Source: Bryoerythrophyllum caledonicum (taxonomy: Eukaryota; Streptophyta; Bryopsida; Pottiales; Pottiaceae). From it: DNA of 64,000 nucleotides. Shown piece by piece: positions 40,078-64,000 of this stretch. Below the pieces are notes generated by a model that saw nothing but the letters and a program-made list of their open reading frames with translations, was not told the origin of the DNA and did no database searches. Within the stretch, counting starts at the first letter, position 1. Each line of letters starts with the position of its first letter. The position numbers were made by a program, and so were the translations under genes. The DNA lies in contig OZ020521.1 of NCBI GenBank assembly GCA_963971425.1, positions 10,185,519 through 10,249,518 of the forward strand, in the 5' to 3' direction.

Positions 40078-41573
40078 TCAAGCCCACACGCCGAGGACCG
40101 ACATGGCGCCGCATCCGACGAAGAGGGCGATGAAGGACATGATCTGCAGCTTCCTGTCACTCCGCATGCGCTTGCTCATGAACTCGGCGGCGATCAGCTC
40201 CACCAACGCCGTGTACACCAGGATTCCACCTGAGATGGAGTCGAAGATGCCGATCACCATCAGCGCCGTCGGGCTGTTCTCGTTGTACGTGGACGCAATG
40301 CCCATTCCGATGCCAATGCCGATGGAGGTCGTGATCGCAAACATGAATCCCATGATCGTCGCTGTCAACGTCTTGAACCTCGCCTGCAGTTCCAACCATC
40401 GTCAGCTTGGGAACAATCAGTGAGAGGTGTGTGTCTGTCTGTGATAATTCACATACCTGAGCGATGCATCCCCCCAAAGCGATGCCTTCGAAGAACTGAT
40501 GGAAAGTGAGAGCTGCGAACAGCGGGTTGATGGTGCAGGGGCTGTTGGAGACTCCAACTGTGATTCCGATGATGACAGAGTGAGCCACGATGCCGAGCTC
40601 GAAAACCTGCAGACACCAGAGATATGAGGTAATGCACGCGAAAATCACTCCACTGTGAGTTATACTATCATGGAACAGGTAGGATGATGATACTTTTGTT
40701 TGCCAGTTTGAAACAATTCAGTGAAATTTGTTGATTAAGAGAGGGTTAAACTTGAGAAGACCTGCCATTGACGTGGTGGAGGATCCACTTACTTGAGCAA
40801 CGACGACGTGCCTGGCATGTGTGAACATGTCCTCAGTCTCCTCATGAATGTGGGCCGGGTGGGCCTTATCTCCAACGTTGGACTGCTTCTCCATCGTGTC
40901 AACTGCAAGATGGTACATGATTATACTATTCATCACACACAGCATATGAGAAAGGAACCATGAATATATGAAGAACCTAAATGGCACGGGTATGTTAGAG
41001 ATCTTCATCAGCCTATACGAGTCTGCACTAGCTGTGAAGTCTTCTTCGACAGTTATCAAACAGTAAGTTATGTGGCAAAAGGTGAGGTTTCCGCTGTGCA
41101 GCAGTGATCATACCTTTGGATTGCTCCTCGAAGTTGCCGTGGTTCTTGTGACGACCCAGGTAGAATTGGGTGGCGGCGACGTCCAACACAAGCGTGGCCA
41201 GAGCGCCGAGCATAGCGATAAACCCTGCCCACGCGAATTTCCCCCACGGATTCTCAGGCAGGCACGGATTGCTCAGCACCTCATGTGCCGTGGGCAGCAT
41301 GTGGATGAACGCGGTGGCCAGAATGACGCCCGCGGCGAACACCTTCGCAACAAAGAAAGGGTTCCCATCGGCCCTCAAGATTCGAATCCGCCGCCCGGTG
41401 AGCGGAATCAGCACCCCGAGCGCACTCGCCAAGAAGATCACCGCTATCGCCCACCCCTTGAGCCGCAACGCTGCCGCCGAGTCGACGCACTCGTCCTCCT
41501 CCGCCCGCGAGCAGTCCAGCGCCTCCACCAGTGCCTCAACCACGCCCGAAGCCGGCTCCGCCATCTCGCTCAC
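40078..41573 (-). CDS. ZIP-family zinc/iron transporter, 4 exons
   Basis: Exons 41573-41114, 40902-40793, 40606-40457 and 40383-40078 join through GT-AG introns of 211, 186 and 73 bp into a 341-residue protein. Eight membrane segments are visible. TM2 ends in HMLPTAHE (91-98); the cytoplasmic loop at about 141-190 is histidine-rich ([12 protein letters not shown]); TM4 carries the ZIP signature [16 protein letters not shown] with H199, and TM5 carries HQFFEG with H226 and E230, the metal-binding residues of the family. Family knowledge: plant ZIPs import Zn2+, Fe2+ or Mn2+ across the plasma membrane or out of vesicles. The length is normal and no key residue is missing. Substrate cannot be read from sequence. 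An FTR1 iron permease lies 2.7 kb upstream in the same orientation. Coding exons are much more GC-rich than the surrounding DNA. Confidence 0.94.
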
Positions 41574-41766
41574 AGCTCAGTACTCTCTACAACGTCACAA
41601 CAGTACTCAAGTCAGCAGCACTTCGACGTGCAGCTAGCTTCACGTGCGCGCACCGTCCTTCGCTCTCACCTGAGAATTCGAAACCTCCGCTGATGCAACG
41701 TACGGAGTGTACCGTGGCGTGATTCATTTAAAGGGCCGAGGTGCGTTTTCGTCGTCCAAAGGGTTA

Positions 41767-44314: not shown

Positions 44315-45271
44315 TTACACGGCGGTTGCTGTTGTTGTTGTTGTTGTTGGAGCTGTGTTACCGTTGTTGAGAGCCTGGTGCTTGGCTTCTGCGGCGTCGC
44401 GGTCCGCCTCGCGCTCCGCGTCGCGCTTCCACTTGATGCGCAGCACGAGGAACGTGACGACAACGAAAAGCCAGTAGCAAATGTAGGAAGTGAGCGTGCC
44501 CACAGTGGCCTCGTCGCGCCAGCCGACGATGGCGCCGAGGATCTTCCAAATGCCGTCGTCGTCCTCGTGGCAGCAGTGCAGCTGCCACAGGAAGTGCTCG
44601 TCCTCGCGGTACTCCTCGAACTCGTGCACGGAGCCGGCGAACAGGCCCGCGGCGATGATGAGCAGGAGCGCGGTGGAGAACAGCAGGAAGTAGCGGAAGC
44701 CGACGGTGCTGCAGCCCTTGTACAGGAGATAGCCCACGAGGATGCCACAACAAGCGCCCACGACGGCGGGGATTGGCAGCGCCGTGCCGGAGTCGTTCAG
44801 CCCGATCCCGCCCAGGAAGATGACCGCCTCGCACCCCTCGCGCAGCACGATGCTCAAGGGCAGCAGCACGAGCGCGTACTGCGACTTGCGCGCCATCGTC
44901 TTCTCCGTCACCTTGGTCAGCTTGAGCTCCCACTTGCGCTTCCATGTGTCCACGCGCACCATGGAAAACGCCATCACCGTGATGAGCACCACCGCGATCA
45001 GCCCCAGAATCCCCTCCCAGAGCGGCTCTGAGCTCTCCCACGCGTCCTTCGCTACCGTGTAGTACAGCGACAGAAACACCGCCGCCGCCGCCATCGACAG
45101 CGCCACGCCCCCTACCACCCCCCACCACACATGCTTCTTCATCCGCCTCCGCTGCGCCACATCCTCCACCAACCTGTCCAGCAGCGCCATCATCACAGAC
45201 AGGATGATCGCCGCCTCCAGTGTCTCCCTGAACAGAATGAAGAACGCCGGCACGCTGAACAAACTCACCAT
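44315..45271 (-). CDS. FTR1: FTR1-family high-affinity iron permease
   Basis: A single uninterrupted exon encodes 318 residues. The two iron-binding R-E-x-x-E motifs of the family are present: RETLE at 15-19 in the first membrane helix and REGCE at 144-148 in the fourth. The W-E-G block (LWEG, 84-87) followed by a helix and then a basic stretch (KRKWELKLTK) matches fungal and algal FTR1 proteins. About seven membrane segments are visible, starting directly at the N-terminus as in the family. The tail is polar, ending in a threonine run. Family knowledge: FTR1 forms a plasma-membrane complex with a multicopper ferroxidase and imports Fe3+ as it is produced; no ferroxidase gene is in this window. 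At 318 residues it is somewhat shorter than yeast Ftr1. High GC and lack of introns contrast with the ZIP and MBD genes and could reflect transfer or retroposition. A possible TATA-like stretch lies near 45,690 on the same strand. Confidence 0.93.
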   Translation of the reverse strand: MVSLFSVPAFFILFRETLEAAIILSVMMALLDRLVEDVAQRRRMKKHVWWGVVGGVALSMAAAAVFLSLYYTVAKDAWESSEPLWEGILGLIAVVLITVMAFSMVRVDTWKRKWELKLTKVTEKTMARKSQYALVLLPLSIVLREGCEAVIFLGGIGLNDSGTALPIPAVVGACCGILVGYLLYKGCSTVGFRYFLLFSTALLLIIAAGLFAGSVHEFEEYREDEHFLWQLHCCHEDDDGIWKILGAIVGWRDEATVGTLTSYICYWLFVVVTFLVLRIKWKRDAEREADRDAAEAKHQALNNGNTAPTTTTTTATAV

Positions 45272-46365
45272 GGTTGGAACAAACTTACAACAACCGAAAC
45301 TCCAACGCCTCGCTGCTGCTGCTGCTGCAACTCCAACTACAACTCCGTTCGACGCCGCTGCAGGTTCTATGATGATCCTGGATCCTCGGCTGATTATTTA
45401 TGGTGTCAACGGAGGGCATGAGAAGCGCTGCAGGACCCCAGTCCGAAAGTTGATGGGGAGCAGCTTCCAAGACGACGTACCAAAGTCGACGGTGGCGATG
45501 AAAGCTCTCCGCAAATCGACGGCTGCCACGCCCATGCAGCGACGGCACACGCCCTGCTCGCTCTACCCACGCTGCGGCTGTGTGGCCGAGCTCAATTCTC
45601 CAACCAGCTCAGCGCGACCATAACCACCGCCATAGCCACCCCAGCATCACGGACAAAACACGCTCCATGTCCTGCGCCAGATCCATATTATAATATACTT
45701 GACGCCGCAGCTGAGATTGATTCGTAAGTCACCATCTCCACAGCAAATGAGGAGCTCCACACATGCATGACGTCTCTATCTCATGAGGGCCATAATATCA
45801 CCACATGCTGCAGCTAATTACTCGATGATCAGTAAGTCACTACTGAGCTTGTTGATTTCTCAGACGACGACGTTGCAGCTTCCATAAGTCGATTGTAGAC
45901 CTACTTGATCGATGAGCTTGTGAAAACTTGCGGTGATCATGGATATCCACATTTTGGACGTGGTGATGGTCTCGAGGTGATCCGGGGCATGACTTGTTTG
46001 TGTGTGTTTGTTTGGTTTCGTCACGGAAGCCATCAATGGCCGAAGCACTAGGTACATGAGCTCCGGGTCTCCCAGGGTATCACATAGGTATAACCAACAA
46101 CCACGTTGTCTTCATTTGCCGTATCTCCATGTGACTGTTGGAGTGAGTTGATGGCAGATTATTCTCGAATCTTCACATTGTACAGTTGAGTGTGATGGTG
46201 GTGGGTCACTGAGTGGAATATCTGCGACTTGGAGGGGATGGCTATGGCCAGCCAAGAAAACAATTGAGTCGTACACGGCCAAAACCAAATCGGGTAAGAT
46301 AAAGTTGAACATAAGAGGATTGCGGGTTTGATTTGGACGGGCCTGCGGTGAGGCGATGGCTACTA
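45272..46365. other. Upstream region of FTR1
   Basis: This is the 5' flank of the minus-strand FTR1 gene. Minus-strand reading shows TATATTATAATATGG at about 45,683-45,697, which could be a TATA element some 400 bp before the start codon. Plus-strand frames here (up to 139 codons) have no recognisable domain. No other gene is supported. Confidence 0.35.
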
Positions 46366-49803: not shown

Positions 49804-52800
49804 TTAAGGGGGGTCTTGCCTATCAGGGAGGACTTGGTTGTTTTCGATTTTGCGTTTATGCAGTAAAATAGACATGGCATGTTGAATAGCGATGGTGTTG
49901 ATATTTTTAAAGGTAGTTTTAATTGTATCAATGGGTATCTTGAAGGTATCTTCGAGAGTTTCCATAGATGGGATAAAGGTGGTGGCACGAGCGCCGGATG
50001 TGATAACAATAAGGGGGTCCACATTCCAGCCGAGGGCAATGATGTCGTCTATGAGGGGTTGGTATTTATCTATTTTGTTTTGTATTGTTTCCGGGGAGAA
50101 TCTATCGTTGCAATATGTAAATTCGATGAATTGAATGGTGTAGTCTTGGTTGATGTTCTCGGGTGGTGGGTCGTTGTATGGTAAGCCTTTGACACAAAGA
50201 ATGTCCGGTTTGAGCCTAGCATTGCAATGACATCTTTGGGTCATACATGAGCATGGAAGTAGCCATGGGGGGACCGTGTTTTCTTGTAGATTGCTATTAA
50301 AAGTGCCGGCGTTCATAAGTATGAAACATCTCGATTTATTGTAGGAGGTGATTAGTTTTCGAACTTCCCATACCGCTTTGTTATGTCTTTTAACAATTAG
50401 GGAGTGTATGTGGTGGTTTTGGCATTTGAGTAGCACATGAAGCCATGTGTCGGGGTCCGTTGAGGGGCATATGGGACATGTTATGGATGGGAATCTTTCT
50501 GTTCCAAAGAAGAGTTGTTTGCGAGCGTTTCCCATATAGTGGCCAGTACGGAATTTGATGAGGCATGTTATTTGTGAGTCTGAGATGATGGGGTTTTTCC
50601 AAAAGTTTGTAGAGAGTTCATTGTCTATGTTGTTATTGTTAGTCCATTTTTCTATGTTAGGAATATTTTCTGAAATTGTATCCAGGTTGTTGTAGAGGTC
50701 TTGTTTTTTGAGATATTTGCCTAAAAATCTAATTGGGCCTTTGTCGGGGGTATCTTCTTTGGAAGGCCAATCTTCTTTTTGAAAGTAGTATGGGGTGGCA
50801 TGAGCATGTTCGTGAGGGTCTTTGGCATTTTTGTGTGTTTTTTCTCGGCCTTCTTTTGCAAGTTTGTCTGCTTGTTCGTTGCCATCAATGTTGGCATGGG
50901 CTCTGACTTTGTGAAGGGTTGTGATTTGTGTACGTTTTTGTAACATTTGTACCATTGATGTTAGTATGGTTTGGTCGGGGTGACTGTTGTGAAGGGTTGG
51001 GTGTGTTATTTGAGTGTTTAGTAGGTAGAGTGCATTTATACAATCGGTGAATATATGTGCAGGTTCATTTTTGTATTTTGTTGTGATGATTTGTAGTGTT
51101 TTGTGAATGGCCATAAGTTCTGCTCTGAGGATATTTTGTAGTCCATGGAGTCTCTTGGCTAGTTTAATTTCTTTGGTAGAATTATATATGCCATAGCCAG
51201 CTTTTTCTCTTCGCCAAGAGCCCGGGCTAATTTGTTCCGGTGGTTTAAAAGAGCCGTCGGTGTAATAACTGTATGCGGGGTTAAATTTTGGTGTGGTATG
51301 AGTTGGGTAGTCTGGGAGAGGGGGAGGTATGACGGAGTAGTTTAATGTGTTGTTGTCATAGTTTAATTTTGACCATTTTTTACTTTTGTTTACGGGGGTT
51401 TGTATGGGTGTTGGTGGGGCCGGTTTTGTGTATGGTCTTTGTATGTCTAGATTGTCTGTTATGGAGGTAAGTTCCGCAAGTTGTTCTAGGGAGCCCAGGT
51501 TTTGATTTTGATGATGGACGCATAGTATTTGTAATGTAGATGGCTCTATTCGGGGTTTTTTTAGCTTGGGTGGGATATTAGGTTCTTCGTATGGTATTGT
51601 GTCTGCTTCGAATAATGCAATGATGTGGGAATCTGGGAATGGGTTTAAATGTTGGTTGTTGATTTGGTACCAATTGTTGTTCGGTGTGACGATGATTGTT
51701 TTTGTGTTATTTGGATCGTGTTTGGCGGCGAGTCTAGCCCAATGTATGGCTTGTTCTATGTCTTTCTCGTTGTGGGGGTGAGCTATTCCATTTCCGATCC
51801 ATTTGTGTTCAAAGGCCTTGCCTAGGGATCCAAATATTTTGTCTCTTTCGTACGGTGAGTAGAATTTATTTAGTTTGGTAGGACATGTGATCGGGGAGGA
51901 AAAGTATGAGTGTTCGATGTTAAAGGATGATATTAGTGAGTCTAAAATGGGGGTGGGTATTGTGTATTGCGCATTTTTGAGGGGGTCAGTTTTTGATATT
52001 CGATATTTATATCTTTGGTAAAGCCATATTAGTTCGGTTTCAAAGGGTTGGGTTGTTGGTTCAATGTTTGTAGGGGATTGTAATTTTGTATGATATTGGT
52101 TCCATAACCATTCGAGCCGGGTAATGGGTATGGTGTGTAAATGTCGGCCGTTTTCTTCGTATAGATGTGCTTGATTGTTATCTATTTGAATTGTGTTTGA
52201 GGATGTAAGGATATCATTTTCGGGGTTGCATTCTGTTGTGTAGATGTTTAAGAGTGGGATAATTATGGGTGGCGTTACGGACCTTGAATCTGAGGATTGT
52301 TCTTGTGGATGGTGGGTAAGGATGATATATGAGTATATTTTGTTTTGGATCTTTTGGTAGTATTGTTTTAATTTTTCAGTGTTATGTGTGGAGGTATTGG
52401 TGTCATGCCGTGGAAAAAGGTCTCTTTGGGGGAGCCATTTATTGTATGTATTATCATTGTGTTGCCATTGGCATAGGTATTTTGTGTAGGTATTTTGTAT
52501 GTTATTTGTGTCTGTGTGTTGGATATGTTTATGGTTTATGATATTATTAATGGGGTATGTGGTAGGGTTTTTGGGGATGTATGTTGGGGGGCGGGGGTGG
52601 TATGTATGTGGAGGGTTAGGGGGATTGGTTGGTGTGGGAATATTTCTTGGGATGATATTATTGTTGAGGGTGATGAATGGATCTTTAAGTGTATGAGAGT
52701 ATGGGTGTATGTTGCAAGGAGTATGACATATAGTGGGGCATGTTATGTGGCAAAATAGTTGTTTAGCAACACTTAGGGCACTCTTTATTAGTTTAGATGG

Positions 52801-55800
52801 GGTGAAGTGGTAGGTTTTGAAGTCCTCATTGTTCATGATGTGTGTACCGTTAGGTAAGGTGATTTGGTTTAGTTCAAAAATATTTTTTGAGAGGAGTTTT
52901 TGTAGAAGCTTTTGGGAGAGTTGGGCATTGAGTGTGTTATGATTTAATGTTTCTTGGCGCCATAGTATTTCTAGTGTTGTAGGATTAGTGAGGAAGTTCG
53001 GGAGTGTACTTTTAAGGTGGGCTTTAGCTATATGTTTTAATAAGAAGAATGTTCGTGTTATTGGCGATCTTATGCAGTCACTTTTTTTAATTCTCGGTAT
53101 ATTTTCAGCGCCACCATATTGGGCAAGGACATAGTGAGTTAATCCATTATATATTTTCCCAAGTCTTCCTTTATCGTTTAGAGCATTTTGCAGTTGTTCG
53201 CCTATACATCGGAGGTATGCGTTTTTTAGGGAGAAAGCTTCAAGTCCAAATAGGTTATGTGGTAGTTGGGTTATTGCATTTGACATACATTTTGGTAATC
53301 CACATATGGTTTTTTGTATGGCTATTATTTTTTTGTCAAGTTTTTTGATAGCTGGCATAGAGTATGGTACACCGTAGAAACTGTATGCCACACCTGGGCG
53401 TAGTACGGTATCAACCATTTTTATTTTTTGTTTCATGGTGGCTGGGCATGTTGTTAGTTCTTTGCATTGTTTGATGAGCTTTGTGGTTGTAGTGTGGATT
53501 TGGATTTTCCATTTTAGTGAGGGAACAAGATTTGTACCTAGGTATATGTATGGTTCGTTTTGGTGTAGTATAGGGATTGGTTGGTTGCGGTAGTTGATGT
53601 TGGAGGTTTGCATTAGGGCTTTGAAAGTGGTAGGGTTTAATTTAGATTTGTTGGGGCATCCGGTAGCGGCACATTTTGGAACTCCCACATCCATGCCAGC
53701 CCATCTACAATATCTATCAATTTTATGGAGTTGTATTTGGATTGATTTGATATTGTTAGTTATGGTGGCTAGGTCATCTGCGTATGCGGCGGAGTTTATT
53801 GTGACTTGTGATGTGCCGAAAGTATATCCATTATTGCCTCTTTCTAGCCATCTAAGTAGTGGTTCCAAGAATATAATAAATAGGTATGGGCTGAGGGTGT
53901 CCCCTTGTATAGTTCCTCTTTGGATGGGTATAGGTTTTGTTTTCCCAAAGTGTTCGCCGATATAGCAAGTAGATGATTGGGAATAGATGTTTCCAACAAG
54001 TGTAGTTGCCTCTTTTGGATAGCCAAGGTCTGACATTATTGCTAGAAGTCTGGCATGATCAATTGAGCCAAAGGCATTTTTGAAGTCCACGTATAGTATG
54101 TATATATCTTGGTTAGTAAATTTTGCGTCTTCTAATGCGGCTATTATAGTTTGTATTTGCCGTGCGGTACTTCTCTCCGCTCTAAATCCTTCTTGACTAT
54201 CATGTAGGATTTTGAATTTTTCGCCGTATGAGGATAGTATGTGGGTGAGTGTACTGGTAAAAAGCTTATATATTGTGTTAGCTAGTGCAATTGGTCTATG
54301 ATTGGGTAGTATGGATGGATCGCCTTTTTTGTATAGTAGAATTGTTGCACTTGTTTTCCATGAATTTGGTATTTGTTTTTGTTTATAGCAGTGAGAAAAG
54401 AATAGGAATAGTAGTTTATGAAATCTTGGAGGCATGTTTTTGAGTATTGAGTTTGGTATGCGGTCTGGGCCTGGGGCCTTATTATTTCCAAGATTTTGGA
54501 GGCATGTGTCGTATGTGGCTCTGTTGAGGTATTTATGTAGTGGAATTTCTGGTTCGCCCCGTTTGTCAAGGGTATATCCGTCCAAGTCGTGCCAAGGGTA
54601 TTGGCGTATTGCACATGTGCATTCTATTGTATGTTGTGGCTGGTAATTACATGTTGGTATTGTTGGTCTATTGGTTTTTGTTTGTTGGTTGAATATTTCA
54701 TTCGCAATGTCTTCGGGGCTAGTTAGAATATTATTATATTGATCTTTGATACAATCCATTGGTGGGGATTCAAGGTTTTTAAAGACTTTTTTGTTAATTT
54801 TTTTGGGGCTGATTTCGTATAGTTGTCTGTATTTTGAGATGGCTTTTTTAATGTTTTCTTTTGTGTATTTTGTGATTATTTTCCGGGCTTGTATGTTGGC
54901 ATTTTTTGCAATTATCGCGATATCTTTTATCCATGTATCGTGGGGAAGGTCCGGAGGAGGCGGGGTAGGGAATTGGATATGTTGCATATTTAGTAGTTCG
55001 TTGTGTATGGGGTGGTTACGCCATTGAGGGTTGTTTTTTACAATTCTAATGGTTTTACGTATGGTATGGTATGTGGTTAAGTGTTGTTTCCAAGTTTTAG
55101 AAAGTTTGTGGGGTAGATACCCGCCTTGTTGAGAGGTTCTGTTTGTCATTTGGGGTATTGGGTGTGCTCTACAAGTTTGTTCTAGTGTATCAGAGATTTT
55201 ATTGATGAGTTTGTCTAGAGAGTGGCATGCTTCTTGCCATTGTGCTTGTGTTAATTGACTATTGATTTCAAGAGTGTTTATGAGGGAGTCTATTTGTACG
55301 GTGTTTTCTTCGAAGAATTTTGTGTTGAATTTTTCTATGTTGGTTTTTGGGATGGGGTTGAGTATGCGTATAGTGTCTTTGTTTGGGATTGTAGGAGTTC
55401 TACTAATTAGTGTGTTATTTGGGATGTGCAGTTGTATGGGTGAGTGGTCCGAATTGAGAATACTATCTTTGTTTGTTGTGGAGGTGTAATGTGTGTTGTT
55501 GTTTGTATTTATATAGAATCCATCTATTAGACTCCAATCACTATAATTGTGGCCACCTTGTCTAGAGAATTGTGTATCGGTATTGATGTAAGTGAAGTTT
55601 AAGTTTTCTGTGAAGCGGCGCCATTGGTAATCAATGTTTTGAGGGGGGGTGTGATGGTTTCCATTTTGGCGGCCAATTAGCGCTATGTCTCTATTGAAGT
55701 CTCCACATAATAGGTATGTATGATTGGGATGATTATTAATATGGGTTGTAATAGTGTTTTGTATATCTAAGAGAAATCTAGTATCTTCGGGATGGGATGG

Positions 55801-58800
55801 CATATACATGTGAAAGATTAACCACGATTGTAGTGGGTGATTAGTGATTTTAATTATTTGAATGTATGGTGATATGTGCATTGGGGTAGGGATTTTGTTG
55901 ATGTTGCCGGGGAATGTATATTTTTTGTGTATTAATGTAAGGAGGCCACCGCGGCCCGGTGTGTATGGTCTCCTTTGTTGCATGCATCTTGTAAGTGCAT
56001 GTGTATTGTTAAAGATGAGTTTATAGTCTTGAAATATATTTTGTATATATTTTGTAGATTTTGTGGCGGTTAGTTTTGTTTCTTGTATAACTATAAGAGC
56101 CGGTGGTGTGTCTGTGTTTGCGACTAGAGTTTGTAAGCTAGGAAGGGCAGTGTTTAGTGAGGAAGCATTCCATGTGATTATGTATGTATTTTCTTGGATT
56201 GGTCTAATGTTTTGATTTTGGTTTTGAGGAGGGATGTAGGGAAGAGGTGGGGGTGGGTGGGTGTATTCTGGTATAGGGTCTAGACATTTTAGTGATTCAC
56301 TTATGAGGTTGTTAGGGAGGTAAGGGAATTTTAGTTTTATTATATCATTTGAGGGTGGTATGTCTTGACTATGTAAGAAGTCGTATAGTCTTTTATGTAT
56401 TGAGTTCTCATGGTTTATAATATTTTGGTTGTCTACTAGGAATTCAGTATAGGGGTGTGGAGTGTAAATGTGTCGTTCTGGTGGGTTTTGTAAGGTTAGT
56501 AAGGTTTGTAGGAGTGTATTAGTCCATGTAATTGTGTTCAGATTTTGTGGATTTAGAAGTTGGTTACATTCATCTATGTTTGGATGAGTAGTGATTATTA
56601 GTGCATATAAGATGTGGGGTGGTGGATGCGTATTTTTTTGTTGTATGTATAGGGCAATGTTTGGGTGGGAAGTGTTTTGTATGTGGTGTAATGTATGTGT
56701 GTTTTTTAGAAATGGTGCGAAGGGTTTTGCAATGTGTTCATATTCTGGTTGGAGTTTTATGGTATTAGGTATAAAGTAGATTTTGGCATTTTTTTTGTGT
56801 GATGTAGGATGTCTTTTTAGTATATTGGGCATGGGTCCCGGGTTGGTTTCAATGTCTCCTCCTAGAAGTAGTAGAAGTTTGTGGTATATATGTTTAGTGG
56901 TGTATTTTAAAGGCTTTGTTGTGTTATTAATGACTTGTTGGTTTGGGGGTAGGTGGATGTTTGTATTTTGTGTGTGAGTTGTGGGTTTATTTATTTTTAT
57001 AGTAGGTGTAGTTGTTTTCGTCTTTAGTTTATTTTTTGTCCATGTGGTTTTTGTGGTTGTTTTTGTTTTAGTAGTGTATGGATGTATGTATGATTGGTTG
57101 TATTTTATCTTGGTTGTTTTTGTCCGTGTGCATGTGTAACTATTATGTTTAAGACTATTTGTATGTGGGTTTATGTTGGTTTTTAAAGTGGCTTTTAAGT
57201 CCTTTTTTTCATATGCGGTGTTATTATATACTTTGTGGTTTGTACAATTGTTTGTTTTGGTGTTTGTATTAGTATTTGGTATGAAATATGTTTTGGTATT
57301 CTTTTTGTGCGAAGCGGGGTGTCTTTCTAATATGTTCGGCATGGGTCTTGGGTTAGTCTCCATGTCTCTTCCAATTAATACTAGTATTTTGTAGTAGATG
57401 GGTTTTTTGTTTTGTTTTAGAATTTTTCGTTTTTGAATGTGGCTTTGGTATTTGTGTTTTTTTGATTGTATGTGTTTGTCTTTGTATGTGTGTGTGTATA
57501 TGTATGTGTTTCGTTGATGGTGTGTGGTTGTCTTTGTGTGTGTGTATGTAGTTTTATGTGGTGTTATATTAGTATTCTTTTGTATGTTTGTATTAGTGTA
57601 TGTCACGGTTTTTGTCTTGGTATTTGTATCAGTATCTTTGATAGTATTTGTGTTAGTATTCGTATGAGTACACGTACCGCTATTTGTATAGGTATTTGCA
57701 TTTGTATAAGTATAAGTATTTGTAGTTATATACATACCAGTATGTATATCAGTATACGTACCAGTATTTGTATCAGTATATTTATAAGTATATTCACCGG
57801 TGTATGTATCAATATAAGTATCAGTATACGTATCAGTATATATACCCGAATATTGAAATAATGAGTTTTCTAAAAGATTTCTTTCGAAACATATTTTGTC
57901 TAAAACTATGATTTCTAAAAACAGATTGATATTTATTTCAATCAGATTCAAGTATATTCTTACTTTTATTAGAATTTCTATTTTTAGTAATTCTATTTTT
58001 GGCGACTTCGGCGCCCATCCGGCCGGCGACACATTCATCCCACCTCCTATCCTCATTATTCTACATACTCTCAAAAAATTTCTACTCTTTAATCGCAAAC
58101 TCTTCTCAACTTTATATATATCATTTTTAATGTTATTATTAACTTTCCTTTTATCCCTACAATTTATATTCCAAACTCTATTTTTAGTCTTTACTATTTT
58201 ATCATAACTATCTTCTCTGTTTATTTTTACTCCGACATTTTTGTTTCTCTTTACAAGTTTGGTTAATTTTCCATCCCTCATTTTTGATTTCCTTATGAAG
58301 CCTATTCTATTTTTAGTACTGCTGTTTATAGCTATTCTTTTACTATTTGTATTTTTATTATAATTAATATAAATTACTACTTTGGTGAAATTTTCATCCC
58401 TTATTCTTGATTTTTCAATGAAGCATATTCTATTTTTAGTACTGCTGTTTATATCTATTTCTTTAATATTTATATTCATATTATAATTAATTCTCATTGC
58501 TACTTTGCTTAATTTTCCATTCCTTACCTTTGTTTTTCTTAGGAAGCATATTCTATTTTTAGTACTGCTGTTTATAGTTATGTTCTTAATATTTGTATTC
58601 TTATTATAATTAATTCCCATTATTAATTTTGGTAATTTTCCATCCCTTATTTTGGATTTCCTTAAAAAGGATATACTATTTTTTGTGTTGCTGTTTGTTC
58701 CTATGTTCTTATTATTTGAAACTTTTATAAATTTATAAATATCTATCTTTTTCCTTTTTAATTTATAATATGTCTTTTTACTCTCCTTGTTTTTCCTATT

Positions 58801-60057
58801 TTTAGCCATTTTGATATTCTTTATCTTCTGATGGTTTTTGGGTTTTGATTCCCTTCTACCATTATTTATCTTTATTCCAAAATTTCCATTATTGTTTTTA
58901 TTAGTATTGTTTCCTTTTTTGTTATATGTAGTTTTTATACTTATTTTTACTTTTCTTTTATTATTTATTCTAATTCCATCTCTTCTCTTATTCCTTTTAT
59001 TTTTTATTTTGGTTTTGAAGTCCCCTCCAAGTAGTATTAGCAGCTTGTAGTGAGTGTGTTTCTTGTTTTGTTTTGGAGTTTTTTGTATGCGGCTTCGATA
59101 TTTTGTTTTGTTCTTTTTTGATTGTATGTATTCAACTGTGTATGTGTATGTGTACGTGTATGTGTATCTTTCATGATATGTTGTTGATTTTGTATTTGTA
59201 TGTGTATTTGTATGTGTATTCTTGTGTCTGTTTGTATTAATATGTGTCTCAATATGTTCAATATGTTGTGGTTGGTAAGTATGTTTGTGAGATGTGTATG
59301 TAGTGTGTGTGTTTACCCAAGGGATGTGGTGTGTGTTTTGAGTATGTTTGTGGGAGTTCAATGTGTTTATTGTGAGGGTAGAGTTGCCCTTTGTTGGTGG
59401 TAGGTGTGCAATCTTTGGTATTGAGTGTAGTTTGTATGTGGTTTCCCGAAGGAGGTATGTGTTCCATATACACTTGTGTGGACAAAGTGTGTATGTATTA
59501 GGAGTAAAATTCATAAGAGAATACGAGGAAACAAGGAGTCCTAGAATGTAGGACAGTTTGTTGGTCCGTGGCTTGTATCTATGTATGTGTGTGATACATG
59601 CGATTTTTCCAATAACTCTAGAGAAGGAGAAGACTATGGTGGGGGAGGGGAAGGTTACTAAATGTTGGGGGAGGAGGGGGGGAGATGTATCTATAAGGTA
59701 GATTTCTATCAACGAGTTGCAAAAAGTATAGTAGATATTGTGGGGGTAAGTGTAGAGAAGTGTGGAGGTGGGTGCATCTAAGAGGTGCGGTGGATCTATT
59801 GAGGAGGACCTATCATAATAGTTTAGGAGGAGAAATATGACAAGAGACATATGAGGATGTAGAGGTAACATAGATGACTTCTGAGATAAAACTAGAGAGA
59901 GAAGTTGAGATGGGGGTATGACAGTGGCCAAAATGACAACTATGATTGTGTTAGAGGGATAACTATGAGTAGGGGTGATAGGTGTAGAGGAGGTCAAATT
60001 ACCAATCCACCACAAAAATCTGTGTTGGTGGAAACTTTGTCTGTGGTCCGTGGTCAA
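49804..60057 (-). CDS. LINE ORF2: 2A-APE-RT-RNase H-CCHC-REL polyprotein
   Basis: An open frame of 3,417 codons without a stop. Residues about 1-1,070 are low-complexity (N/K/T/Y-rich, with several tandem repeats) and may be only partly translated. A perfect 2A-like motif ends at G1074/P1075. Then come: APE endonuclease, about 1,290-1,546 (TWNASSL, QETKL, YMPSHP, CGDFNRD, SDHSP); reverse transcriptase, about 1,850-2,130 (NKAPGPDRIPNS, GFRAERS, YVDFKNAFGS, QGDTLSPYLF, YADDLA at about 2,090); a linker with a weakly chromodomain-like piece (KYLCQWQHNDNTYNKWLPQR, about 2,523); RNase H, about 2,926-3,070 (YTDGSF, AELMAI, FTDC, NEQADKLAKEG); CCHC finger CPICx8Hx4C, about 3,193-3,214, with RHN; and a restriction-like nuclease, about 3,281-3,352 (KPDI, FIEF, KIDKY). 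The frame opens with TTG next to the ORF1 stop; the first in-frame ATG is residue 63. ORF2 products copy the element into nicked DNA in the nucleus. Confidence 0.88.
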   Translation of the reverse strand: MTTDHRQSFHQHRFLWWIGNLTSSTPITPTHSYPSNTIIVVILATVIPPSQLLSLVLSQKSSMLPLHPHMSLVIFLLLNYYDRSSSIDPPHLLDAPTSTLLYTYPHNIYYTFCNSLIEIYLIDTSPPLLPQHLVTFPSPTIVFSFSRVIGKIACITHIHRYKPRTNKLSYILGLLVSSYSLMNFTPNTYTLCPHKCIWNTYLLRETTYKLHSIPKIAHLPPTKGNSTLTINTLNSHKHTQNTHHIPWVNTHTTYTSHKHTYQPQHIEHIETHINTNRHKNTHTNTHTNTKSTTYHERYTYTYTYTYTVEYIQSKKNKTKYRSRIQKTPKQNKKHTHYKLLILLGGDFKTKIKNKRNKRRDGIRINNKRKVKISIKTTYNKKGNNTNKNNNGNFGIKINNGRRESKPKNHQKIKNIKMAKNRKNKESKKTYYKLKRKKIDIYKFIKVSNNKNIGTNSNTKNSISFLRKSKIRDGKLPKLIMGINYNKNTNIKNITINSSTKNRICFLRKTKVRNGKLSKVAMRINYNMNINIKEIDINSSTKNRICFIEKSRIRDENFTKVVIYINYNKNTNSKRIAINSSTKNRIGFIRKSKMRDGKLTKLVKRNKNVGVKINREDSYDKIVKTKNRVWNINCRDKRKVNNNIKNDIYKVEKSLRLKSRNFLRVCRIMRIGGGMNVSPAGWAPKSPKIELLKIEILIKVRIYLNLIEININLFLEIIVLDKICFERNLLENSLFQYSGIYTDTYTDTYIDTYTGEYTYKYTDTNTGTYTDIHTGMYITTNTYTYTNANTYTNSGTCTHTNTNTNTIKDTDTNTKTKTVTYTNTNIQKNTNITPHKTTYTHTKTTTHHQRNTYIYTHTYKDKHIQSKKHKYQSHIQKRKILKQNKKPIYYKILVLIGRDMETNPRPMPNILERHPASHKKNTKTYFIPNTNTNTKTNNCTNHKVYNNTAYEKKDLKATLKTNINPHTNSLKHNSYTCTRTKTTKIKYNQSYIHPYTTKTKTTTKTTWTKNKLKTKTTTPTIKINKPTTHTQNTNIHLPPNQQVINNTTKPLKYTTKHIYHKLLLLLGGDIETNPGPMPNILKRHPTSHKKNAKIYFIPNTIKLQPEYEHIAKPFAPFLKNTHTLHHIQNTSHPNIALYIQQKNTHPPPHILYALIITTHPNIDECNQLLNPQNLNTITWTNTLLQTLLTLQNPPERHIYTPHPYTEFLVDNQNIINHENSIHKRLYDFLHSQDIPPSNDIIKLKFPYLPNNLISESLKCLDPIPEYTHPPPPLPYIPPQNQNQNIRPIQENTYIITWNASSLNTALPSLQTLVANTDTPPALIVIQETKLTATKSTKYIQNIFQDYKLIFNNTHALTRCMQQRRPYTPGRGGLLTLIHKKYTFPGNINKIPTPMHISPYIQIIKITNHPLQSWLIFHMYMPSHPEDTRFLLDIQNTITTHINNHPNHTYLLCGDFNRDIALIGRQNGNHHTPPQNIDYQWRRFTENLNFTYINTDTQFSRQGGHNYSDWSLIDGFYINTNNNTHYTSTTNKDSILNSDHSPIQLHIPNNTLISRTPTIPNKDTIRILNPIPKTNIEKFNTKFFEENTVQIDSLINTLEINSQLTQAQWQEACHSLDKLINKISDTLEQTCRAHPIPQMTNRTSQQGGYLPHKLSKTWKQHLTTYHTIRKTIRIVKNNPQWRNHPIHNELLNMQHIQFPTPPPPDLPHDTWIKDIAIIAKNANIQARKIITKYTKENIKKAISKYRQLYEISPKKINKKVFKNLESPPMDCIKDQYNNILTSPEDIANEIFNQQTKTNRPTIPTCNYQPQHTIECTCAIRQYPWHDLDGYTLDKRGEPEIPLHKYLNRATYDTCLQNLGNNKAPGPDRIPNSILKNMPPRFHKLLFLFFSHCYKQKQIPNSWKTSATILLYKKGDPSILPNHRPIALANTIYKLFTSTLTHILSSYGEKFKILHDSQEGFRAERSTARQIQTIIAALEDAKFTNQDIYILYVDFKNAFGSIDHARLLAIMSDLGYPKEATTLVGNIYSQSSTCYIGEHFGKTKPIPIQRGTIQGDTLSPYLFIIFLEPLLRWLERGNNGYTFGTSQVTINSAAYADDLATITNNIKSIQIQLHKIDRYCRWAGMDVGVPKCAATGCPNKSKLNPTTFKALMQTSNINYRNQPIPILHQNEPYIYLGTNLVPSLKWKIQIHTTTTKLIKQCKELTTCPATMKQKIKMVDTVLRPGVAYSFYGVPYSMPAIKKLDKKIIAIQKTICGLPKCMSNAITQLPHNLFGLEAFSLKNAYLRCIGEQLQNALNDKGRLGKIYNGLTHYVLAQYGGAENIPRIKKSDCIRSPITRTFFLLKHIAKAHLKSTLPNFLTNPTTLEILWRQETLNHNTLNAQLSQKLLQKLLSKNIFELNQITLPNGTHIMNNEDFKTYHFTPSKLIKSALSVAKQLFCHITCPTICHTPCNIHPYSHTLKDPFITLNNNIIPRNIPTPTNPPNPPHTYHPRPPTYIPKNPTTYPINNIINHKHIQHTDTNNIQNTYTKYLCQWQHNDNTYNKWLPQRDLFPRHDTNTSTHNTEKLKQYYQKIQNKIYSYIILTHHPQEQSSDSRSVTPPIIIPLLNIYTTECNPENDILTSSNTIQIDNNQAHLYEENGRHLHTIPITRLEWLWNQYHTKLQSPTNIEPTTQPFETELIWLYQRYKYRISKTDPLKNAQYTIPTPILDSLISSFNIEHSYFSSPITCPTKLNKFYSPYERDKIFGSLGKAFEHKWIGNGIAHPHNEKDIEQAIHWARLAAKHDPNNTKTIIVTPNNNWYQINNQHLNPFPDSHIIALFEADTIPYEEPNIPPKLKKPRIEPSTLQILCVHHQNQNLGSLEQLAELTSITDNLDIQRPYTKPAPPTPIQTPVNKSKKWSKLNYDNNTLNYSVIPPPLPDYPTHTTPKFNPAYSYYTDGSFKPPEQISPGSWRREKAGYGIYNSTKEIKLAKRLHGLQNILRAELMAIHKTLQIITTKYKNEPAHIFTDCINALYLLNTQITHPTLHNSHPDQTILTSMVQMLQKRTQITTLHKVRAHANIDGNEQADKLAKEGREKTHKNAKDPHEHAHATPYYFQKEDWPSKEDTPDKGPIRFLGKYLKKQDLYNNLDTISENIPNIEKWTNNNNIDNELSTNFWKNPIISDSQITCLIKFRTGHYMGNARKQLFFGTERFPSITCPICPSTDPDTWLHVLLKCQNHHIHSLIVKRHNKAVWEVRKLITSYNKSRCFILMNAGTFNSNLQENTVPPWLLPCSCMTQRCHCNARLKPDILCVKGLPYNDPPPENINQDYTIQFIEFTYCNDRFSPETIQNKIDKYQPLIDDIIALGWNVDPLIVITSGARATTFIPSMETLEDTFKIPIDTIKTTFKNINTIAIQHAMSILLHKRKIENNQVLPDRQDPP
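56833..56880 (-). other. 2A-like ribosome-skipping motif (intact)
   Basis: The encoded sequence is KLLLLLGGDIETNPGP, followed by MPNIL. It fits the 2A core D-(V/I)-E-x-N-P-G-P exactly and has the leucine-rich helix usually found before it. Skipping would occur between G1074 and P1075, releasing a 2,343-residue enzyme part from the repetitive N-terminal part. 2A-like motifs are known at comparable positions in trypanosome and animal LINEs. Confidence 0.85.
57343..57390 (-). other. Degenerate 2A-like motif (second copy)
   Basis: This encodes KILVLIGRDMETNPRP then MPNIL, aligned with the intact motif 510 bp away. The key glycine before the last proline is arginine and the isoleucine is methionine, so skipping is not expected. 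The following 20 or so residues (RHPASHKKN, YFIPNT) are shared with the intact copy, showing that a whole module was duplicated. Confidence 0.75.
57585..57850. repeat. Short-period (6-12 bp) minisatellite inside ORF2
   Basis: Variants of GTATCAGTATACGT and TTTGTATTAGTA follow each other over about 265 bp and encode T/Y/D/N-rich repeats (TYTDTYTDTYIDTYTG). Similar ACACAT/GTATGT runs occur at 57,460-57,560 and 59,130-59,240. The period explains the absence of stops in this frame. Confidence 0.75.
58230..58720. repeat. 123-bp tandem repeat inside ORF2, four units
   Basis: A common reference point (ATTCTATTTTTAGTACTGCT or variant) falls at 58,304, 58,427, 58,550 and 58,673, a strict 123-bp period, equal to 41 codons. 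The units encode variants of INSSTKNRICFLRKTKVRNG with ongoing K/N-rich sequence. All four units keep the ORF2 frame open despite clear divergence. Confidence 0.85.
59010..59057 (-). other. Decayed 2A-like module (third copy)
   Basis: This encodes YKLLILLGGDFKTKIKN. The leucine-rich helix and GGD are kept, but the E-x-N-P-G-P end is gone. The 30 residues before it (YIQSKK, RIQK, KQNKK) match those before the second copy (HIQSKK, HIQK, KQNKK), again indicating module duplication. Confidence 0.6.
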
Positions 60058-61769
60058 TCCACGTTTGTCGGATCTCCTGGGGCGGGAAGCTTGGACCTCG
60101 AGATATCTTGTAATGCTAGTAATGTGGAGGCCATCAAACTCTCCACATTGGTGAATTTGGTGCGGAGCTCATTGGTGGCATTGTTGGTATACTCTCGTGT
60201 TTCCTTGATGATGTCTTCTCGAAGAGTAGATAGCTCCTTGCGTAGTCTCTGGTTACCTGCTTCCATGATGGCTGCCATTTCCGACCTGGTGATGCCGGCA
60301 GGGGTGGGTGTGACCTGGATTGAATCCACGGTGTTGACTAGGGCCTTGCTGATGTCGTTGAAACCCCATTTCTCGACCAGGGAGGGGTTGGGGGGTGCAA
60401 TGCCTTCAAGACTTCTACGGTGAGGAGCAATTTCTACGTGGTGACTACCAATTGTGAATGTTTTGTTTAGCAGTTTCCTGTAGATAATGGGATTAATAAG
60501 TTGCACATTAGCACTACCATTGTGCTTCCCCCCTTCCTGCCTATGGAACCATATGGATATAACATTCTTCTCTTCGAACACCTTGTTGATGATGGCCGAA
60601 GTTTCCTCAACACCCATGAGGATGGGAAGTTGTGAGAGTGTGACCATGAGAGCATCTCTTTTCGCTCGATCAATGGTTCCAAATCCACTCGAGCTAGTAG
60701 CCCTTGCTGGAATCACTTCTTGGTGTGTAGTGATTTGGTGAAGTTCGAATTTCTTGGCTTGTTGTGGGGTTGGGGCAACAATGAAGGCGTGTGACTCTCC
60801 AAGCACCTTTTGCATGTCCACTATTTCGAACTCCATCTTCCTAGTGAATCCGTTCATAACTATGTCCTGGTAGAGTGTGTGTGCCGCAATACCTTTGAGG
60901 TTATCACTCTTAATCCTCACTGATAGGTTCTTCCTTGCTACTGCGTGGAAGGTCTTGCATACATTCCCCATGATAGCTGGGCCTAGAGGGTCTAATTGTA
61001 ATATGAAGTACCTGGTGCCTCTAAGTAGAGATATAGCATCCACCTCTGGCCTGAGGAGGTGGAGCTTAATTATCCCTGCCCATATGCCCATGCCATGCTT
61101 TTTGACCCCTTTGCATAGGACTGCAACAGGGTCCATGAGGCTAGTGCCAAGAGGGATCCCCATGTGCTCGAGTCTAGCGATCGTGAGTATCTTCACGTCA
61201 TCATGATACATGTTGTGTTCTGGCAATTCAAAATGAATTGCTACGTGGAAGTCAAGGGAAAGACCGGTCACAGGGGAGGTGGGAATGTCAAATGGTACTT
61301 GTGTCAAGTTATAGTGTTGCCCTTCAATGTTGTCTTGCCGTATTGAAGGATATAACAGTTGTGGGATTCTCGGATAAGCCACCTCAACTCCAAAGGCTTC
61401 CTCCGCTTCTTCCTTGGGCACTCCTCGTGTGATCATGTCTATTATACTTTCTCCACTAAATAGAGGTTCCTGTCCAGCATCAATGGCAAGTTTCTCCATG
61501 GTGGAGAAGCCTAACCAAAAATGAAAATAGGTGAAGTCAGGAGTAGAGACTTGTACCAGGGGGGGGAAATTGCCTCTTGCTTTCTTTGATGGGGTTGGTG
61601 CGTCTTCTATGGAAGAGGTTTTAGTATGGGCTTCTGTAATCCTCTTGGAGCTCTCTGAAGAACTCTCCACCTCCATGTCTACCGCTTTGTGTGTCAGGGA
61701 TAGTAGTGTATGGGGGTCAGGGAGGTCACCAAAAGTTCCTAGGGCTAGTGGGGGGATGATGCTCGCCAT
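60054..61769 (-). CDS. LINE ORF1 protein, 571 aa
   Basis: The frame is open further upstream to 63,635, but its first ATG is at 61,769, in a strong context (ACAAATGG), so I start there: MASIIPPLALG. The protein has an acidic/serine-rich N-terminus, a central part with an RRM-like run near residues 420-490 (SIWFHRQEGGKHNGSANVQL, then GSHHVEIAPHRRSLEG) and a C-terminal stretch that looks like a coiled coil (ITRSEMAAIMEAGNQRLRKE onwards). This plan suits a LINE ORF1 RNA-binding chaperone that packages the element RNA. The stop (TGA, 60,054-60,056) overlaps the first codon of the ORF2 frame, which lies in another reading frame. No gag-type CCHC knuckle is seen. Function is inferred from position and layout. 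Confidence 0.75.
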   Translation of the reverse strand: MASIIPPLALGTFGDLPDPHTLLSLTHKAVDMEVESSSESSKRITEAHTKTSSIEDAPTPSKKARGNFPPLVQVSTPDFTYFHFWLGFSTMEKLAIDAGQEPLFSGESIIDMITRGVPKEEAEEAFGVEVAYPRIPQLLYPSIRQDNIEGQHYNLTQVPFDIPTSPVTGLSLDFHVAIHFELPEHNMYHDDVKILTIARLEHMGIPLGTSLMDPVAVLCKGVKKHGMGIWAGIIKLHLLRPEVDAISLLRGTRYFILQLDPLGPAIMGNVCKTFHAVARKNLSVRIKSDNLKGIAAHTLYQDIVMNGFTRKMEFEIVDMQKVLGESHAFIVAPTPQQAKKFELHQITTHQEVIPARATSSSGFGTIDRAKRDALMVTLSQLPILMGVEETSAIINKVFEEKNVISIWFHRQEGGKHNGSANVQLINPIIYRKLLNKTFTIGSHHVEIAPHRRSLEGIAPPNPSLVEKWGFNDISKALVNTVDSIQVTPTPAGITRSEMAAIMEAGNQRLRKELSTLREDIIKETREYTNNATNELRTKFTNVESLMASTLLALQDISRSKLPAPGDPTNVD

Positions 61770-64000
61770 TTGTGAGGGGGAGGTAGTGGTGTACTCACCG
61801 CCGCTTAGGTAGTAGAGGAAGCGGTAGGTCACGGGTGGGGGGGGTGGTCGCAGTTGGGAGGAGAGGGGGTCACTGGGGAAAAAGAGGTTTGATGTGGGAG
61901 GTCTTAAAGAGAGATGGGGGTCGAAAGGAGTTGAGAGGGAGGGTCGGTGGGGAAGGAGGGTCACAGATAGGGGAAGTAGGGGGTCGCTGGTCGTAGAGTA
62001 TGGGTCGTGGGTCTGACTAGGTAGGTCGCAATGGGGGGGTCGCAATCGATTTGAGTCTCGCAGGTTGCAGGGGTTCAGTCGCAGGAGGTCGGTCACAGAC
62101 TTCCGGCGTTGGGCACGATTGCTGGTAACGTGCGAAGACTTCGGAACGGAGCGCAGCAGGGAATTAGAATGATGCAGGGGATTGGGGCTCTGCAGGTAAT
62201 CGATTGCAGACCGCTGGCAGCGGCTGCCAGACCGCAGTTTCGGAGGTTTGAACGCTGATGTAGGATCGCTGGATGAGACAGGTCTAGCGGTCACCCGTGC
62301 AACTGTATGAGTACGGGGTCTCTTGTAGTCGTTGTGAGGTCTTGTGCACGCTCGTCTTTCGTGTTCCTCTTGGTGCTTTGTTCGTATGTCTTCGTGTTGT
62401 TCTTGGTTCTGTGCACGTCTGTCTTTGTGTTGCGCTGCGTTCTTCGCTCTTCCTCCTTCTTGCTGGTCGTGGTTCTTCACTTGTCTGCCGCTACGCTTGC
62501 CTTGGTTTTGTCCTTCTCCTGCTTCTTGATTACCGTCTTCTCTGTTCCTCTCTTGACGGTCACAGCCTGCAGTACCTGGTGTATTGTTCTTGACAGAGTT
62601 CGGTGCTCTTATTTGTGCCTGACAGTGCTGGGGGTTCTGCGTGCAGAGTCTTCTTCGTTGTGCACTTGCTTCTGCGGAGGCCAGCAGATTCTTCCTGTCT
62701 GAGAGGACGCACAATCTTTTATTGCCTGTGGGGAATGTGCGTGCGCCGTCTGCGGGAGTTTTTGTGTACGCACTCTGCTCGTTTCCTTCGGTACTCCTTA
62801 TACGTCCTTGGGCAGGCTCTGATCTTGATTTTGTTGGCTTGCAGATCCTGTGAGTTTGTACGCAGGGGTTCTCTAACTGTTCTAGGTCTACCTGCTTGAG
62901 GGTTTCTGTATAAGGAGTCGCGGCTTCCACACAGGCTGAAGGGGCTGGGGTTGGAATTTGCCGAGTCGGGGTATTGAGAGCGATGGATTGTGGGGGGAGG
63001 GATGGAGGGGCTGTGGGGGAAGAGGGGGGGTTTACTGAGAGTGTATGGGTAGAGCAGCGATCGCGGTGGGAGGGGGGGAGGGAAAGAGAGAGAGGGGGGG
63101 GGAAGGGTGGGGGAGAGAGAGGGTAGTGGGAGAGGATGATGCAGGCTGTGGGAGAGAGGGGGCACCTGTTGCGGGAGGGGGAGGATTTTTGGAGGGGAGT
63201 AACGAAAGATGAAGGTTTAGCAATTAAACTCACCTGTTCTGTTCTTGTCTTTGTCTGCTTGTGTTCGTGTTGTATTTGCCAATGCGCTGTGATTGTGCGC
63301 CTGCTGATCTTCTGTCGTAAATCTCCTTCAGGCTGTTTTCCTTTGCTGCTGATGTTCTGTAGTGTTGTGCCGGTGGTGCAGATTGTTTGAAGTTGCTCGC
63401 GGGGTGGCTCCAGTTTGGTGTTGTAGAGTTTTTGCTTCTTCTCAGCTAGATCTAGGTCTTGAAAAAAATTCCAGGGCTCCCGCGTGCAATCTGTAAACAC
63501 TAATTTCGCATAATACTCTTGAGGATACAACTTTCTTAAACATGTGATGTTATAACTATTATGTAAAGCGTGTGTTTTACTAGCAAGGCATGGTGACAGT
63601 GTATGAATAACAATGGTGAGGTAAGGAAAGGACAAAAAGGTGGAGGAGGGGTAAGAGGTAGCCTGATGTGATGCGGTGCTGATGCCTTGCGGCGATGGTG
63701 GATCGGACGTGTCGTCAATCTTACTTGTTTGAGCACCTGGGTCGGGGAGAGGGAGGGAGTAAGTGGGAGGTAGCAGATCTAGTCAATCTATTCTCAGATC
63801 TAGGGTGGAGTGACCTTGTGGGTGAGATTGAGATGACCAGATCTGTGCTCCAACACCGGTGCCCCAAGCTTCAGAATTCACACAGCAAGATCTTACCATC
63901 AACCCTCAAACCACAATCCACTAACCCCAGATCTAAAAATTTTGAGCCTTTCCAACACTAGTACCTTGCGTTCCACACCTAACCACTTTTCCAACAACCA
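61770..64000 (-). other. LINE 5' region upstream of ORF1
   Basis: The ORF1 frame stays open for 622 codons before the first ATG (from 63,635), with proline/serine-rich and Q/R/E-rich translation. The absence of any methionine in that stretch suggests it is a GC-rich 5' untranslated region and not protein. Pyrimidine runs on the element strand are prominent at 63.0-63.2 kb. Beyond 63,640 the sequence is unassigned; it may contain the element's promoter or flanking DNA. Confidence 0.5.

Follow-up and report, generated by a model that had tools for sequence, protein, structure and literature searches.

Does the 2A-like core that precedes the enzyme domains of a LINE in Bryoerythrophyllum caledonicum act as a ribosome-skipping (StopGo) site, and what are the degenerate copies of it that lie upstream? 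The question was raised by a stretch of 64,000 nucleotides, the whole of which is here called the window, and by a preliminary description of it that was made from the letters alone. A 2A-like sequence of L1Tc was reportedly described by Heras in 2006, and 2A-like sequences of APE-type LINEs are said to have been treated by Odon in 2013. The literature searched yielded no plant LINE with a 2A, although Rao 2025, a survey of eukaryotic and viral 2A, or Odon 2013 may contain one. In trypanosome and animal LINEs 2A-like sequences are established, as sections of two articles cite (PMC4981915; PMC11512398). StopGo is presented in sections of a 2026 survey as working in plants, yet with no natural use by plant viruses, and is called rare outside viruses (PMC12846837).

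The element lies on the minus strand of the window and spans at least 49804-63782; its features are collected in Table 1. Reverse transcriptase, endonuclease and RNase H identify it as a LINE, and it occurs in many dispersed copies and has no LTR; no LTR-like direct repeat flanking ORF2 was seen when the region of 49-64 kb of the window was scanned. ORF2 lies in the -1 frame relative to ORF1, overlaps it by 115 nt and has its first Met at codon 100. The last 648 residues of ORF1 gave 0 Pfam matches at E 0.01. The leader of ORF2 abounds in Thr, Asn and Lys, and contains a 123-nt unit in tandem (window 58245-58717) across which the frame stays open; similar stretches match between other loci. 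The PCIF1_WW domain is positioned between the reverse transcriptase and RNase H, which is unusual there. It lined up weakly with solved PCIF1 (E 0.12, over 82 residues only), and a genome search for it returned 2,614 first-look candidates, at least 150 of which scored above the cut-off. The C-terminal region gave no convincing Pfam or PDB match to a restriction-like endonuclease, and a structure model of it was discarded at a pLDDT of 32.

Table 1. Features of the LINE in the window (positions are those of the window).
Feature	Positions	Strand	Details
ORF1 open frame (stop to stop)	60054..63782	-	C-terminus very unlike between subfamilies
GACAAAC, window copy of G-NCA-AAC	60063..60069	-	two codons before ORF1 stop (60054-60056)
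ORF2 open frame	49804..60168	-	3,454 codons + stop (49804-49806)
Low-complexity leader, ~1,100 codons	56869..60168	-	upstream of endonuclease
Module 1 plus its upstream flank, LLILLGGDFKTK, lacking the end	58999..59216	-	LLGGD 59020-59034, ends GGDFKTK
Module 2 with flanks, LVLIGRDMETNPRP-MPNILERHPASHKKN	57230..57560	-	LIGRD 57364-57378, NPRP 57343-57354
Module 3, intact 2A/StopGo core, LLGGDIETNPGP	56833..56868	-	LLGGD 56854-56868, NPGP 56833-56844
Conserved start of the putative released enzyme, MPNILKRHPTSHKKNAKIYFIPNT, common to module 2	56720..56832	-	
Exo_endo_phos (APE-type) endonuclease	55657..56178	-	Pfam, 24.8 bits, cut-off 24.5 (barely above)
Reverse transcriptase, RVT_1	53536..54321	-	Pfam, E 1.2e-26
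PCIF1_WW domain	51676..52080	-	Pfam, E 2.8e-10, 40.5 bits, cut-off 31.1
RNase H	50845..51273	-	E 5e-14
C-terminal region, CPIC...H...C then PD...E	49804..50790	-	by eye restriction-like endonuclease-like

All three modules lie on the minus strand in one frame. Module 3 (GGDIETNPGP) is a textbook 2A/StopGo site, LLLLLGGDIETNPGP, placed ahead of the endonuclease, reverse transcriptase, PCIF1-like and RNase H domains, and the break is expected between G and P of NPGP. As DIETNPGP it matches the 2A core pattern (D/G/C/N)(V/I)ExNPGP, and it stands in frame between two predicted products, with the open leader upstream and the enzymes downstream. Modules 1 and 2, the latter ending in GRDMETNPRP, do not match this pattern; in the window element both have lost residues on which StopGo depends, and no activity is expected of either. 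The upstream context of the modules was compared with the Leu-rich context of several 2A classes by eye only.

To judge the likeness between the modules, they were scanned against other offsets in the leader. Module 2 (57343-57430) matched both 58999 and 56833 at 68% (z 6.3 each); extended by its upstream flank (57343-57560) it matched 58999 at 70% (z 7.3), and module 3 with its downstream flank (56720-56868) matched 57230 at 62% (z 7.5). With z values of 6.0 to 7.5 overall, and with the same families recovered by a repeat search, the modules are true duplicates, and chance likeness is ruled out. The upstream flank is common to modules 1 and 2, and MPNILxRHPxSHKKN to modules 2 and 3. The preliminary description had thus correctly seen a tandem triplication within ORF2, the MPNILxRHPxSHKKN stretch behind both downstream copies, and the distribution of endings, namely a perfect DIETNPGP in the last module alone, P-R-P in the middle one and a lost end in the first. 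It had also placed the modules in the N-terminal part of ORF2; the part in question is a very long low-complexity leader ahead of the enzymes and not a folded N-terminal domain.

The host genome (437 Mb, 894 contigs) gave 31 matches to the NAM/NAC domain, 29 of them on large contigs, against none in 14 control genomes; as NAC is not known outside streptophytes, this points to a land plant. The genome was searched for further codings of the core. The exact peptide D-I-E-x-N-P-G-P-M was encoded 1,653 times, both strands counted, and the reversed-pattern control gave 0. When DIE and MPN were fixed and the five codons between them left free, xNPGP was found in 1,508 of 1,930 matches; with D, NPGP and MPN fixed, DIE was kept in 1,508 of 1,596. 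For 20 long loci that were retrieved with module 3 as the query, the identity of module 3 is no evidence. The loci for the selection test were not these but were found via PF12237, the PCIF1 domain some 4.8 kb downstream, the core being no criterion and the MPN anchor being required. Forty places were picked by hand among 150 rows, in two sets, one selected for the length of the open frame and the other for a high score. The anchor was visible in 30, and the other ten were without the module (L052, for example, is an ORF1 end and L068 a downstream region). The last module reads D(I/V)ExNPGP in 25 of the 30 copies with the anchor; NPGP is present with E changed in L061 and L070, and absent in L060, L063 and L071.

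Twenty-eight of the 30 had enough flank (L060 and L063 were left out), and 23 of these were distinct. Across these 23 copies, NPGP showed a pS of 0.684 and a pN of 0.010, and DIE a pS of 0.599 and a pN of 0.089. Upstream of the core the ratio was 0.88, nearly neutral, for codons 11-20 and 0.55 for codons 1-10, and from MPN on it was 0.27 for the first ten codons and 0.32 for the next ten. MPN and the residues that follow are thus also conserved, and part of the constraint therefore belongs to the protein that would be released. The first 100 matches listed in the search that fixed DIE and MPN comprised 66 distinct haplotypes, 45 with NPGP; the remainder were mostly single-step changes (NLGP, NPRP), together with two that are apparently unrelated. 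Over the 66 haplotypes, the third positions of N, P, G and P varied by 0.90-1.78 bits and the first and second positions by 0-0.72 bits. The second base of the first Pro (0.72) and the first base of Gly (0.69) come near the x codon (0.77, 0.79), an effect of the decayed copies and NPRP modules in the set. In haplotypes of the NPGP form, the x position is taken by T, K, A, Q or I, and the upstream context diverges between copies (LLLLSGD, LIILCGD, LLYRCGD) while DIExNPGP stays constant. The core is conserved as a peptide, not as DNA. DIEHHPGP-M is encoded at five places in the genome, L060 included, with synonymous differences between them, and marks a sublineage of the LINE; His at the N position appears in sections of the 2026 survey as a rare variant, enriched among viruses and active when assayed with a reporter (PMC12846837).

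The state of the reading frame suggests that the leader is translated. In the window it holds 0 in-frame stops, against 96 and 100 in the two other minus frames, and the frame leading into NPGP is open for 665-1,411 codons in ten copies (the window and nine loci). Base composition gives such a length a chance of about 1.4e-16 or less, and over the same ten stretches the other two frames have 35-149 stops each. The lack of in-frame stops is by construction, each stretch having been measured back to the nearest stop, and it is the length that is the evidence; the ten copies were hand-picked from the window and the loci retrieved with module 3, and they are not independent, since a large part of the last 1.9 kb is common to the subfamilies at some 80-94% and some copies are close relatives. 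In L013, L015 and L025 an in-frame stop separates the open stretch from the ORF1 junction, and in L024 and L026 no more than 21 and 366 open codons precede NPGP. Given the open-frame lengths found, it is unlikely that the leader is noncoding filler.

Taking these observations together, we consider it highly probable, as judged from the sequence, that the last module of this plant LINE functions as a 2A/StopGo site and frees the ORF2 enzymes from the leader. A ribosome in the ORF2 frame would translate the long leader, which it might have entered, a step proposed with less confidence, from ORF1 by -1 recoding at the motif G-NCA-AAC. At D-I-E-T-N-P-G/P the nascent chain would block formation of the Gly-Pro bond, and the leader would be released, along with ORF1 if the two are fused. 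Translation would resume at Pro and give an enzymatic polyprotein, P-MPNIL..., comprising endonuclease, reverse transcriptase, PCIF1-like domain, RNase H and the C-terminal region. The enzyme would so obtain one defined N-terminus regardless of events in the leader, which would evolve fast by tandem duplication, at times of the 2A module itself. StopGo at module 3 would thus explain why the leader is variable yet open and NPGP nearly unchanging.

Other readings of the motif have to be weighed against this one. The AUG directly after NPGP could be the true start of the enzyme, the leader being untranslated or separate and the motif accidental. An ATG does follow NPGP in all 23 distinct copies, although by construction through the MPN anchor; the leader has no Met near its start, and internal initiation at this AUG could yield a nearly identical enzyme. 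NPGP lies upstream of that AUG, however, and is under selection at the level of the amino acids, the frame is open for hundreds of codons further upstream in all ten copies examined for it, and the window ORF2 contains 13 in-frame Met codons before it, which makes this reading improbable. It also seems quite unlikely that DIExNPGP belongs to the conserved part of an ordinary protein domain and causes no skipping. Such a domain would fit the extension of conservation into MPNxLKxHPxxHKK, where the low ratio was found, but the constraint has the shape of StopGo, with N, P, G and P all but invariant, D, I/V and E largely constant and x free, and both the small N-to-H lineage, of a type reported to be active, and the diverging hydrophobic upstream context speak against it. 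Hitchhiking in a young amplified family, or plain chance, can hardly account for the motif. Some subfamilies are indeed very young, eight loci being identical to the copy L009 over 5 kb; copies nevertheless carry many synonymous differences while NPGP is nearly unchanged, and a chance motif is rejected by the empty reversed-pattern control and by the contrast between pS and pN.

The upstream modules are in different states in different subfamilies. Two intact NPGP modules stand 65 codons apart in L037-L040 and L044; between the two, six of the eight core codons differ, in every case synonymously. An upstream ELEINPGP is retained, along with an NPRP module, in L016/L017; copies of the L009 type combine a decayed upstream module (LIGGDINTRPN) with an intact last one, and L045 and L055, which were not selected through module 3, carry NPRP in the upstream module and NPGP in the last. 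Duplication of the module has thus occurred more than once, and as a rule the last copy is the best preserved, though not always the sole intact one. Within the window's subfamily, Arg replaces Gly of the middle module in 98 of the 100 listed DMExNP?P-MPN matches (196 in total); NPRP looks like a fixed trait of this one subfamily and thus like one past loss, and free variation of module 2 is unsupported. The claim of the preliminary description that only the copy next to the enzymes was kept functional therefore fits the window element as far as its sequence shows and fails for L037-L040 and L044, with two NPGP cores, and for L016/L017. It had further proposed an alignment to see whether other copies always conserve NPGP and leave the other modules free to vary; NPGP is under strong purifying selection, and the fixed NPRP speaks against free variation.

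It could be asked whether the upstream modules act instead as StopGo sites of weak or regulated activity and divide the leader into fragments. The paired intact cores with purely synonymous differences and the retained ELEINPGP would agree with this, but the nearly uniform change from Gly to Arg in the window's subfamily and the absence of NPGP from module 1 would not, and sections of the 2026 survey give the Gly position of NPGP as almost exclusively Gly (PMC12846837); we regard this reading as unlikely.

If the last module acts as a StopGo site behind a translated leader, ribosomes have to reach that leader. In six copies from five lineages in which ORF2 opens beside the end of ORF1, ORF2 is in the -1 frame with an overlap of 16 to 175 nt. 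In 10 of 13 loci scanned, zero to two codons separate G-NCA-AAC (N = A, C or T) from the ORF1 stop, and the motif is absent at the junction in L024, L026 and L043; it was picked after six of the loci had been seen, and the new cases are L013, L015, L052 and L025, the last nearly a copy of the element in the window. The -1 frame opens only 16 nt (L014) and 19 nt (L012) before the end of the ORF1 stop, so that any frame change must occur there. In an extended form the junction was counted 215 times in the genome, against 0 for the reversed control. From the first 100 listed places 37 distinct haplotypes were taken, 36 of which have the ORF1-frame stop, and all 37 read AK[HL]V..KD in the -1 frame, most of these letters being fixed by the search pattern. 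This conservation suggests that ribosomes pass from ORF1 into the leader by some form of recoding. That ORF1 ends at a conserved G-NCA-AAC and that ORF2 follows in the -1 frame is new here, and makes a second recoding step, upstream of the StopGo site, likely.

A classical -1 frameshift is unsupported, as G-NCA-AAC is without the XXX part and downstream folds are weak, with no strong RNA fold after the junction in seven copies (z 0.0 to -2.1). Reinitiation at an AUG touching the ORF1 stop is not general, such an AUG being absent in the window, L012, L013, L015, L016/L017, L025 and L052; reinitiation at a later AUG of the leader, whose first Met is at codon 13 to 477, is possible. The single-ORF subfamily (L009) has no ORF1 in front and no leader Met for 476 codons, and must therefore start in another way. 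That one mRNA undergoes two recodings, -1 at G-NCA-AAC and StopGo some 1,100 codons later, and that the leader grows and shrinks by duplication of the 2A segment, the downstream copy taking over and older ones often decaying, is a tentative scheme to which, as a whole, we give slightly less than an even chance.

The element shares with the 2A LINEs of trypanosomes and animals a D(V/I)ExNPGP in frame with LINE proteins, and differs from them in its plant host, the very long leader with tandem modules, the PCIF1-like domain and the -1 overlap with ORF1. A copy number that varies between relatives is also described, in sections of one article, for picornaviruses with several 2A(NPGP), where 2A1 of parechovirus E is a natural copy that is inactive (PMC11512398); those are virus polyproteins, whereas in the window's subfamily the upstream copies are broken in the core itself. 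Theiler's virus, as presented in part of another article, likewise joins StopGo and a frame change in one expression plan (PMC5009743). There, however, StopGo comes first and the -1 shift after, whereas here the frame change would precede StopGo by about 1,100 codons, and the LINE junction is without a classical slippery heptamer. By domain content alone, that is APE endonuclease, reverse transcriptase, RNase H and a C-terminus that by eye is restriction-like endonuclease-like, the element can be likened to Dualen/RandI LINEs as outlined in sections of two articles (PMC4640811; PMC3747384), RandI being listed there for green algae (PMC3747384). The set of APE endonuclease, RNase H and reverse transcriptase is present, the endonuclease only just above the cut-off, and a land plant host, the PCIF1_WW domain and the 2A set the window LINE apart. 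No relatives elsewhere were found in the genome contigs, viral contigs or phages searched. With some 1,600 codings for a selected 2A core, a plant genome would provide a natural case of StopGo in plants. The family offers a large natural alignment of intact and broken 2A variants and candidate 2A peptides of plant origin for expressing several genes together, and it lends itself to tests of how the proportions of LINE products are set.

Besides the eight loci identical to L009 over the 5 kb downstream of NPGP, one more is 99.98% identical, and these near-identical copies indicate that the LINE family moved very recently. A frame of 3,087 residues was found in 20 of the 150 listed rows. It characterizes the single-ORF subfamily (L009, L011, L018-L023, L027, L028), in which no ORF1 was seen; the leaders of these copies are 99.8-100% identical and 5 kb of their enzyme region identical or almost so, with the 5' end near -2624 from NPGP. 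Some copies seem by eye to lie inside other copies, and some are about 10 kb apart on one strand.

Two plastid-type rbcL genes were encountered in the assembly (G000:C821, L077, and G000:C894, L078). They are equal at 457 of 474 residues, one of them adjoins an open frame that by eye resembles accD, and as there are two types in one assembly, one may be foreign, from a contaminant or companion plant. On the plus strand of the window, near-identical open frames of 199 aa at 33745-34344 and 34847-35446, 1.1 kb apart, form a local duplication. On the minus strand, pieces of a ZIP metal transporter and an FTR1 iron permease frame lie within some 5 kb (40157-41576 and 44315-45397), possibly an iron-uptake neighbourhood.
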